From contig NZ_KQ758619.1 of assembly GCF_001457035.1 (NCBI RefSeq), forward strand, positions 62,001 to 126,000: DNA of 64,000 nt, given 5' to 3'. Below, in pieces: positions 32,457 to 51,425 of the stretch. The notes under the pieces are model-generated. The model saw only the letters and a program-made list of their open reading frames with translations, ran no database searches and was not told the DNA's origin. The stretch comes from Fictibacillus enclensis. Its GTDB lineage: Bacteria > Bacillota > Bacilli > Bacillales > Fictibacillaceae. The number at the start of each line of letters is the position of its first letter. The stretch's first letter is position 1. A program made the position numbers and the translations under genes.

Positions 32457-32735
32457 TTAATGTTGCTTGTTCAGATGCTGTTTCGCCTGTCGGATGAGTT
32501 CACTCACCATCCGGCCGCCGATCTGGCCGCCAACCGTTCCGGCCTGCTTGGCCGTCAGCTGTCCGTTGTAATCCTTTTGCATCGGCACATTCATGCCTTT
32601 TGCTACTTCATATTTAACCGCGTCGGGCTGGGACGGATCTACAGCATAACCAACTTCTTTCATTACCTTTGCCTTCAGCTGGTCCAGTGCGGGCCTTGAT
32701 TCAGGTACTAAGGGCGTGCGGCTTCTTCTTGCCAT
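32457..32735 (-). CDS. Alpha/beta-type small acid-soluble spore protein
   Basis: 92 residues. LDQLKAKVMKEVGY, KYEVAKGMNVP and GTVGGQIGGRMVSELIRQAK are the two conserved blocks of alpha/beta SASPs, which coat spore DNA and protect it from UV. The germination protease site is of the form E-V-A here and differs from the usual E-(I/F)-A. The protein is longer than most family members (about 60-75). AAGGAGG lies 9 nt before the ATG. No convincing SigG promoter was found upstream. Confidence 0.9.
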   Translation of the reverse strand: MARRSRTPLVPESRPALDQLKAKVMKEVGYAVDPSQPDAVKYEVAKGMNVPMQKDYNGQLTAKQAGTVGGQIGGRMVSELIRQAKQHLNKQH

Positions 32736-32823
32736 GCATTTTATCCTCCTTACTTGCCGTTCTTGCCTCTAGTTTGCCCGTTTACGGGAAGTTCAACCGG
32801 GGTGGATTGGCTGCATATTAGTT

Positions 32824-33300
32824 GACGCTAGAGACTCGATCGTTTCACTCTCTCACTACAACACAAAGAGCATGTTGTTGTTCAAGAGTTCCAACGACTT
32901 CGCTTTTAAACGGTCGCTTCAGCTTTTCTAGCTATGATCCAGCTTCAGCGACCAAAAGCTCGATCGTTTCACTCTCTTACAAAAATACAAAAAGCGTATT
33001 TGTGTTCAAGAGTTCCAACGACTTCGCTTTTAAACGGTCGCTTCAGCTTTTCCAACTATGATCCAGCTTCAGCCGCTAGAGACTCGATCGTTTCACTCTC
33101 TCACTACAACACAAAGAGCGTGTTGTTGTTCAAGAGTTCCAACGCTTGTCGTCTCTAAACAGCGGCTTCAGCTTTTCTAGCTATGATCCAGCTTCAGCGA
33201 CCAAAAGCTCGATCGTTTCACTCTCTCACAAAAATACAAAAAGCGTATTTGTGTTCAAGAGTTCCAACGACTTCGCTTTTAAACGGTCGCTTCAGCTTTT
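32824..33300. repeat. Array of four ~124-bp tandem units, each a long imperfect hairpin
   Basis: GATCGTTTCACTCTC recurs at 32838, 32962, 33086 and 33211 (period 124-125). Units alternate between type A (1, 3) and type B (2, 4). Unit 2: GCGACC-AAAAGC (32948-32959) pairs with GCTTTT (33026-33031) and GGTCGC (33036-33041) with AAAC bulged. Unit 3: GCCGCT-AGAGAC (33072-33083) pairs with GTCTCT (33151-33156) and AGCGGC (33161-33166), again with AAAC bulged. Inner stems TCGTT/AACGA, ACTCT/AGAGT and a 7-nt AAARAGC apical loop are shared. Unit 1 has an A-type left arm and a B-type right arm that cannot pair. Short ORFs through the array are by-products. Confidence 0.85.
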
Positions 33301-33391
33301 CTATTTAAGCATTATTTTTTTAAAATGTGTGATACTTGTTTTATGATAGGGATAATGGATTTAAGATTTCCAAAGAAATGGAGTGAGGTTT

Positions 33392-34366
33392 TTGGGTACT
33401 CAAGAGAATCAGCAGCTTGCTACGTTTGCGGGAGGTTGCTTTTGGTGCATGGTTTCGCCGTTTGAGGAACAGCCGGGCATCATTTCAGTGGTTTCAGGAT
33501 ATACGGGCGGCCACACCGAGAATCCGACGTACGAGGAAGTCTGCTCCGATACGACCGGACATTACGAGGCCGTGCAGATCACTTATGATCCGGATGTTTT
33601 TCCATACGAAAAACTGCTGACTCTTTTTTGGCAGCAGATTGATCCGACAGATCCCGGCGGCCAGTTTTATGACCGCGGCGATTCTTACCGCACCGCCATT
33701 TTTTATCATACAGAACAGCAGAAGGAACTGGCGGAAGCGTCCAAACAGGAGCTTGCCGAAAGGGGCCGTTTCCAGAAACCGATTGTGACGCCGATTCTTC
33801 CGGCATCCACGTTTTACCCAGCAGAGACGTACCATCAGGATTACCATAAAAAGAACCCTGCGCATTACCAACGGTACCGCAAAGGTTCAGGGAGGGAAGA
33901 TTTTATCAAACAGAATTGGAGCAACAAACCAGACAAAAATGAACTGAAGAAAAAGTTAACACCGATTCAATATGAGGTGACCCAGAACGATGCGACGGAA
34001 CCTCCGTTTCAGAACCCGTACTGGGATCATAAAGAAGACGGTATTTATGTAGATATTGTCTCAGGAAAACCGCTGTTCACCTCTCTTGACAAGTTTGATT
34101 CCAATTGTGGCTGGCCGAGCTTTACGAAGCCTATCCAGCAGTCGGAAGTTGAAGAGAAAAAGGACTTCAGCCATTTTATGGTCCGTACTGAAGTCAGAAG
34201 CAAATCGGCCGATTCCCATCTCGGACATGTGTTCAATGACGGACCGCAGGATAAAGGCGGCTTGCGGTATTGCATCAATTCTGCCGCATTGAGGTTCGTC
34301 CCGAAAAGCGACCTCGAAAAAGAAGGATATGGAGAGTACCTTTCCTTATTTGAAAAAAGTGAATGA
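33392..34366 (+). CDS. msrAB: Bifunctional peptide methionine sulfoxide reductase MsrA/MsrB
   Basis: About 324 residues. N-terminal MsrA domain ([13 protein letters not shown] with catalytic Cys, [30 protein letters not shown]) reduces the S-sulfoxide; C-terminal MsrB domain (from ~180; [31 protein letters not shown] with catalytic Cys) reduces the R-sulfoxide. No signal peptide, so cytoplasmic repair of oxidised proteins. Start is not certain: TTG 33392 has GGAG 8 nt upstream, GTG 33383 overlaps that site. Confidence 0.92.
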
Positions 34367-51109: not shown

Positions 51110-51425
51110 ACCGCATTTTCTTCGTGCGATGTATCGCTGCCGAAGCCTTCCTTGTCCTGCGGGACTAGCGTGACAGGTGAGACTAAGGAGGTGCTAGCAC
51201 CGGTACCGCAGGCGCTTGCGCCAGAAGGTAGGCGTTCACGCCGGTAAGGTAGGCGTTCACGCCGGTAAGGTAGGCGTTCACGCCGGTAAGGTAGGCGTTC
51301 ACGCCGGTAAGGCTCACCGCACGCCCCGCGAAATTAGGCGCTCGCGCCGGTAAGGTAGGCGTTCACGCCGGTAAAAGCGAGCGGCCTGGAACGAAAATCA
51401 ACGGCTTCCAGACTTCTTAGACAGC
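51110..51425. repeat. Mosaic hairpin element with an expanded 21-bp tandem repeat
   Basis: Nested arms GAAGCC/GGCTTC, GCGGG/CCCGC, GCGTG/CACGC and GGTGAG/CTCACC enclose a tandem array. In the array GGCGTTCACGCC recurs at 51231, 51252, 51273 and 51294 (period 21) and once more at 51358; GGCGCTTGCGCC (51211) and GGCGCTCGCGCC (51337) are related. Each unit is itself a 4-bp hairpin with tetraloop. The right end (AAAAGCGAGC..CCTGGAACG) is shared with the remnant at 13655-13700. No gene is present in 51069-51432. Confidence 0.8.

Follow-up and report, generated by a model that had tools for sequence, protein, structure and literature searches.

The tandem hairpins found in the window, the whole 64,000-nt stretch of the Fictibacillus enclensis genome that was analysed, were members of a family of imperfect hairpins of about 115 nt that is spread through much of the order Bacillales. 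The explanation that we favoured, and to which we gave an even chance, was that this family represents a non-autonomous, protein-free mobile repeat with one-ended copying in the form of a folded single strand. The elements looked like small parasitic DNA.

A preliminary description made from the letters alone had proposed four units in the order A-B-A-B. The tandem array was confirmed, with four units at 32818-33301 whose starts were spaced by 124, 124, and 125 nt (Table 1), and two TRF rows covered it (32835-33303 and 32826-33301). Two unit types in tandem were indeed present, since units 2 and 4 were 99% identical and formed one subtype (A), and unit 3 represented another (B). The alternation was imperfect, because unit 1 was a chimera. 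Namely, its letters on the plus strand were of the unit-3 type up to 32878 and of the unit-2 type from 32897 onward. In the folding direction, which was that of the minus strand (see below), this corresponded to an A-type 5' arm followed by a B-type apical part and 3' arm. The order was therefore chimera(B/A)-A-B-A on the plus strand and A-B-A-chimera on the folding strand, where unit 4 came first and its 5' end, 33301, was the fixed end of the array. The genes on the two sides, of the SASP and msrA-msrB types, were divergent. Two other kinds of repeats were seen in the course of this work: a 21-bp tandem repeat with 7.1 copies at 51225-51374 of the window, with a similar repeat, GGAGGCGTTTACGCCGGTAAG, visible in L311, and short repeats such as TTGCGGTTCGACA upstream of msrAB in sister species (L110, L111, L112), with several copies per intergenic region.

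Table 1. Features of the window array and its surroundings (window positions; units numbered along the plus strand), and the loci of genome G032 with RF01690 matches.
Feature	Position or locus	Strand	Remark
Alpha/beta-type small acid-soluble spore protein gene (neighbour)	32457..32735	-	Pfam PF00269, 5.4e-19
Unit 1, chimera	32818..32928	-	CM match 72.7 bits; weak fold, 3' end truncated
Linker ATCATAGCTA (minus strand)	32929..32938	-	between units 2 and 1
Unit 2, type A	32939..33052	-	CM match 126.7 bits
Linker ATCATAGTTG (minus strand)	33053..33062	-	between units 3 and 2
Unit 3, type B	33063..33177	-	CM match 134.8 bits
Linker ATCATAGCTA (minus strand)	33178..33187	-	between units 4 and 3
Unit 4, type A	33188..33301	-	CM match 127.4 bits; z -5.4 as DNA
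5' flank in folding direction, AAAAAATAATGCTTAAATA	33302..33320	-	like flanks in G004, G006, G002, G005
MsrA-MsrB type methionine sulfoxide reductase gene (neighbour)	33383..34366	+	Pfam PF01625 and PF01641
G032 loci with RF01690	L365, L368, L370, L373, L376, L378, L381, L383, L384, L072, L304

Units 2, 3, and 4 folded far better than shuffled sequences, with z from -4.8 to -5.4 as DNA on the plus strand and from -5.7 to -7.2 as RNA on both strands. Pairing was kept in these three units and failed in one of the four copies, unit 1, where the outer stem had lost its pairing; on the plus strand its z was -0.9 for DNA and -0.8 for RNA, and on the minus strand it was -1.7 for RNA. When units 2 and 3 were compared, the compensatory changes of the arms were reproduced: 7 of the 32 pairs predicted by RNAalifold differed, and all seven differences were two-sided and preserved Watson-Crick pairing, with no pair broken. 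The first description was also correct on the bulge (AAAC), the loop (AAARAGC), and the swap of two apical pairs. The hairpin unit had conserved internal loops in addition to the conserved bulge, and two internal loops resembled tandem G.A motifs.

Covariation extended to the whole family. In an alignment of 136 distinct copies fitted to the covariance model, two-sided changes occurred at 28 of the 34 pairs. Such changes were present in 836 cells in comparison to a shuffled mean of 222, and 95.3% of the cells were paired versus 28-45% when the partner was slid. For five measures of covariation in the 136 copies, none of 500 shuffles reached the observed value and all six slides stayed below it. 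The result from the fitted alignment was upheld by 25 copies aligned without fitting to a structure, with two-sided changes at 21 of 32 pairs. The 136 copies did not show arms that change independently and break the pairing as often as they keep it, so that the refuting condition set in the preliminary description did not arise, and both alignments supported its proposal that a folded nucleic acid is selected for or serves as an intermediate of copying.

Since an A.C cell on one strand is a G.T cell on the other, mutation of the duplex alone should make the two equally frequent, and an asymmetry between them is informative about the strand that folds. The unfitted 25-copy alignment had 3 G.T and 28 A.C cells on the plus strand. 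For the minus-strand model and the fitted alignment, the counts were 77 G.T versus 10 A.C in the copies of the F. enclensis genome and 188 versus 31 in the others; the summed 265 G.T versus 41 A.C included 117 G.T cells from one constitutive pair. The minus strand of the window is therefore the strand with the conserved fold, and the asymmetry pointed to a folded molecule of this polarity, either RNA or single-stranded DNA.

A covariance model, R1, was built from 22 units. In the F. enclensis genome (G000), blastn found 29 places at E up to 10, the last of which were chance-like, and R1 found 39 matches at E up to 1 (38 elements in the survey of the order). Within the order, R1 matched in 35 of the 40 genomes surveyed, F. 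enclensis included, and in 16 of 20 genera. The counts among relatives varied from 0 to at least 92 per genome, and the high ones were lower bounds because 93 candidates were scored per genome; there were 45 elements in G002, about 51-52 in G006, and 69 in G032. This distribution supported the suspected kinship with dispersed repeats of this bacterial group. The tandem A/B array, on the other hand, turned out not to be unusual. At least two matched units were present at 14 of the 18 loci of the F. enclensis genome and at 35 of the 91 loci over seven species of the genus, the arrays of G001 to G006 in the locus comparison being the better-scoring ones, and mixed unit types were also found in other arrays of at least three units (L002, L008, and L009).

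In 148 further genomes sampled across the phylum, one of them from the same order, a scan under stricter filters gave no match at an E cutoff of 1e-4. Blastn searches of plasmids with the window query and the G023 query, and of phages with the G023 query, were negative. Among viral contigs, none of the 29 matches to a sequence pattern was confirmed by the model, and a second pattern had no matches. The msrAB loci of 80 named records contained one match, in Lentibacillus salicampi. Rfam gave nothing at gathering scores for the window (when E was relaxed to 5, two miRNA matches of chance level appeared), and the hairpin family had no Rfam 15 match of its own. A search of mostly open-access literature, with two founding bcr papers outside it, found no description of the family, which is weak evidence of absence. 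Two variants of the unit were also observed. A longer one with extra hairpins in the 3' arm occurred in L018 (1500-1700) and in several of the loci L316-L335 (from G006, G002, G004, and G005), and many low-scoring R1 matches of model positions 24-98 seemed to be this longer variant. In G023, the hairpin was followed by an AT-rich tail of 45-50 nt (ACATTRCATCTATGC..ATACTTTCT) in most of the fetched copies (L196-L222).

Along the folding strand, the 5' end of the unit was fixed at GAAAAGC, the foot of the hairpin, and its other end was GCTGGA. Both ends carried GCTGAAGC as part of the hairpin, and the 3' ends differed between lineages. The distance from the fixed end to the neighbouring gene was much alike in most orthologous loci. 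With genes taken from a simple ORF picker rather than a gene finder, the fixed end was located 0-5 nt after a stop codon at several loci and 16-20 nt from a divergent gene start at others. The letters at the fixed foot were AT-rich and often TAA. Namely, the first unit was immediately preceded by TAA in 19 of 29 G023 arrays, in 17 of 89 arrays of the Fictibacillus genus (orthologous loci included), and in 4 of 21 arrays of G032; its background in the 80 nt upstream of arrays was 2-3%. The G023 copies with other 5' letters had no matching 3' triplet, as judged by eye.

Incomplete units were strongly one-sided. Of the 85 of 91 arrays kept for this count, 52, from 26 of 34 loci, had a partial unit on the 3' side, and a single one, L182, had it on the 5' side; in the 5' flank of L182 lay the end of a further unit that was not reported by the model. 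Among the 52 partial units on the 3' side, 23 resembled their own array more than any unit found elsewhere, and many were too short to tell. Linkers were identical in 22 of 40 pairs within arrays versus 99 of 4094 pairs between loci. Moreover, the suffix of the linker matched the 5' flank of its own array over 1.34 letters versus 0.69 +- 0.12, a value reached by none of 5000 permutations (61 of 89 arrays, those with a linker of usable length, in 26 clusters). At L163, a unit present in G006 was absent in G005, with CTAG on both sides of the G006 unit and CTA in the empty site; this was a single case, the two genomes were 82-85% alike there, the G of CTAG was missing from the empty site, and a loss in G005 was a possible explanation. 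The divergence of the hairpin and that of the tail in G023 were uncorrelated (r -0.11, 28 copies), which argued against plain copying of the whole element.

Orthologous loci demonstrated that the arrays are not static. On the folding strand, the window locus had the composition B-C-partial in G004 and a C unit with a short partial one in G006. Partial units only were found in G002 and G005; the near-empty site of G003 held a short unrelated stretch, and no unit was seen in G001, which was too diverged there to judge an empty site. The flanks in G004, G006, G002, and G005 were like that of the window, but the units were of other types or partial. Unit 3 (type B) shared 97% identity with a unit of the orthologous G004 locus. 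Outside the array, the A units of the window had their best match at another locus of their own genome (92-93%) versus 78-79% at the orthologous locus. The simplest reading of these identities was that A-type units would have entered an older window array after the split from G004. For a wider count we used 131 of 137 matches (shorter ones were dropped), 121 of which had an orthologous comparison. The closest relative was a unit at the orthologous locus in 82 of the 121 cases, suggesting that most change was slow, and 22 of the 121 units were more than 5 points closer to a unit of another locus than to any at the orthologous locus. Shared sites formed 27 multi-member clusters, 3 of which held at least two loci of one genome. 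Units of other subtypes have entered existing arrays, and unit types have been replaced at fixed sites.

In G032, the Bacillaceae-1 RNA (RF01690) is a module of the hairpin arrays. Nine of 20 fetched array loci held 13 RF01690 matches and two further loci held one each, so that RF01690 was located beside or inside hairpin units at 11 of the 22 loci examined. All 15 matches were on the same strand as the units of their locus, and 11 of them abutted a matched unit within 2 nt. One RF01690 match was found near a unit in G007 (L068), on the opposite strand. The same scan of six loci of the Fictibacillus genus (L002, L004, L008, L018, L316, and L335) gave no match, nor did the window, with none at E up to 5 in 32700-33400. 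The wobble cells of the 15 RF01690 copies (1 G.T versus 13 C.A, read as one shared change) were uninformative and, if anything, leaned against the strand implied by contiguity. In the accessible part of the report by Weinberg and colleagues, the Bacillaceae-1 motif was marked 'n' under cis-regulation (PMC2864571). The available portion of a later paper stated that the discoverers were unsure of the strand and that the reverse complement matched CsrA sites (PMC4333381). No description of Bacillaceae-1 as a module of such arrays was found in the searched literature on this RNA, as far as the accessible portions of these sources go.

The protein that mobilises the units, which the preliminary description had proposed to identify, was not found: the F. 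enclensis genome had no match to PF01797 (Y1 transposase) or PF00078 (reverse transcriptase), the two families covered by the search. PF01797 was matched in 33 of 40 genomes. The seven genomes without it included F. enclensis, G003, and G004, and five of the seven held 12 to 38 elements. Many relatives had one weaker-scoring Y1 gene of about 180-310 aa that was RAYT-like by hand reading. PF00078 was missing from 25 of the 40 genomes, among them G002, G006, and G032. When 30 Y1 loci from relatives were scanned together with flanks of up to 1.5 kb, a single one, L086, had an R1 match; there the element was next to an IS200-like gene in G023, a high-copy genome. A Y1 transposase was thus rejected as a necessary resident mobiliser, since there were element-rich genomes without PF01797 and Y1 loci were nearly free of elements. 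A reverse transcriptase was rejected in the same role because PF00078 was absent in G000, G002, G006, and G032. Neither enzyme need be resident today, although both may have been active in the past.

The orientation of the arrays was biased relative to replication. The folding strand was oriented against fork movement in 34 of 45 G006 arrays (those from the listed part of 52 matches), 32 of 47 in G032, 9 of 10 in G014, and 6 of 8 in G007, with array positions copied by hand, the origin placed at dnaA, the terminus assumed opposite, and the length of G032 rounded. Between tandem genes, the folding strand was antisense at 14 loci and sense at 5. Gene orientation, which is confounded with replication polarity, may explain part of the fork bias.

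Together, the constant start and varying stop of the copies, the presence of local target letters in the linkers, and a polarity like that of the nascent lagging strand suggested one-ended copying at replication forks. According to this model, new units would be laid down as a folded single strand, either ssDNA or RNA, and this strand would be attached to a 3' end present at the target or synthesised from it. Copying would begin precisely at the hairpin foot, pass through at least one unit, and halt at a variable point, and a few target letters would be duplicated in the process. If this happened at the junction of an array already in place, the array would grow, and recombination between units would produce chimeras such as unit 1. 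Forks were a likely setting of the copying since the folding strand tended to share its polarity with the nascent lagging strand. A more specific version, which we considered unlikely, was a replication-coupled one-ended spread with no dedicated transposase or reverse transcriptase, where Bacillaceae-1 would be an exchangeable array module and not a free-standing small RNA or a CsrA sponge. In this version, a nascent lagging strand ending at TAA-like letters would switch to, or join, a folded copy of the repeat, and copying would proceed from the hairpin foot through a whole number plus a fraction of units.

A different explanation, doubtful although deserving serious weight, was that these are old repeats that no longer move. 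Unequal crossing-over, slippage, and gene conversion among dispersed copies would then account for changes in the arrays, and selection or conversion would keep the arms paired. The sites common to different loci in the 27 clusters (3 of them with two or more loci of one genome), the chimeric unit 1, the separate divergence of hairpin and tail in G023, and the similarity of linkers within arrays (22/40 versus 99/4094) were all consistent with recombination alone. However, recombination by itself did not explain the one-sided partial units and the TAA junction, nor did it account for the empty site with repeated letters and for the range of element numbers in related genomes (0 to at least 92). 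It was also quite improbable in our view that the family represents a functional RNA element of transcripts, such as UTR hairpins or a small RNA, with the fold under selection. The strand-specific tolerance of G.U pairs, the conserved internal loops and bulge, the copies that begin 0-5 nt after a stop codon, and the adjoining module in G032 that is an Rfam RNA family would fit such a role. Yet both orientations occurred, with antisense prevailing over sense between tandem genes (14 versus 5 loci), no common gene partner was noticed, and the number and type of units at one site differed between close species.

Very improbable was the movement of REP-like elements, now or formerly, by a Y1 transposase (RAYT or IS200/IS605-type) acting on folded ssDNA. 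A conserved hairpin, one tagged end, and strand polarity resembled what such a system would produce, and 33 of 40 genomes encoded PF01797, although F. enclensis was not among them. The 7 genomes without this domain, 5 of them with 12 to 38 elements, and the presence of the element at 1 of 30 Y1 loci of relatives spoke against it. In addition, the ssDNA of IS608-type transposition is expected on the lagging-strand template, but the folding strand tended to the opposite polarity.

The one-ended repeat that we favoured was closest in kind to transposase-free repeats such as bcr1 or MITEs. According to the accessible parts of the sources (PMC6542083, PMC3446304), the repeats bcr1-bcr18 of the Bacillus cereus group are interspersed, 100-400 bp long, with bcr1 in tens of copies, and bcr1-3 were called MITE-like with mobility tied to repeats of a TTTAT motif. 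In contrast, the hairpin family was order-wide, formed tandem arrays of mixed subtypes, and had partial units at one end; this separation from bcr1 was made by description, based on these partial sources, and not by sequence. A partly accessible survey of computed stem-loop families (PMC2267715) listed Bhal-1, Bhal-2, and Bant-1 from Bacillus halodurans and B. anthracis; compared by description only, their 72-76 bp differ from our unit of about 115 nt. Bacillaceae-1 RNA is also structured and comes from the same bacterial group, but it is a 67-position motif with two hairpins versus a 115-nt unit. Similar to REP, REPIN, and BIME sequences with their RAYT, the family had many intergenic hairpins, mosaic arrays, and one distinct end. 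However, REPs are 20-40 bp long with a GTAG or CGTC tag in the available text of PMC3733652, while our unit is about 115 nt, starts with GAAAAGC, occurs in a genome with no Y1 match, and flanked a Y1 gene at 1 of 30 Y1 loci of relatives. Like the MITEs ERIC, RUP, and NEMIS, the elements were short, non-coding, foldable, and apparently mobile. A target duplication was hinted at by the letters repeated at one empty site and by the linker ends; the non-TAA copies of G023 had no matching triplet. They seemed to differ from MITEs in that terminal inverted repeats outside the hairpin were not evident by eye, the 3' end varied, and the search for PF01797 found no parent transposase. Unlike group II introns, retrons, or other elements borne by a reverse transcriptase, they were present in genomes where PF00078 was absent (G000, G002, G006, and G032). 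The hairpin family was distinguished by its one-sided partial units, by a fold specific to one strand, and by units and modules that are exchanged.

The fixed end, the one-sided partial copies, and the strand-specific wobble make the mode of spread of this family testable. The arrays differed between species of one genus beside core genes and thus created variation next to core operons; for example, the L004 array was located between genes that we take to be atpA and atpG. Moreover, the link to Bacillaceae-1 bears on the proposal, as given in the accessible part of its source, that the reverse complement of this RNA binds CsrA (PMC4333381).
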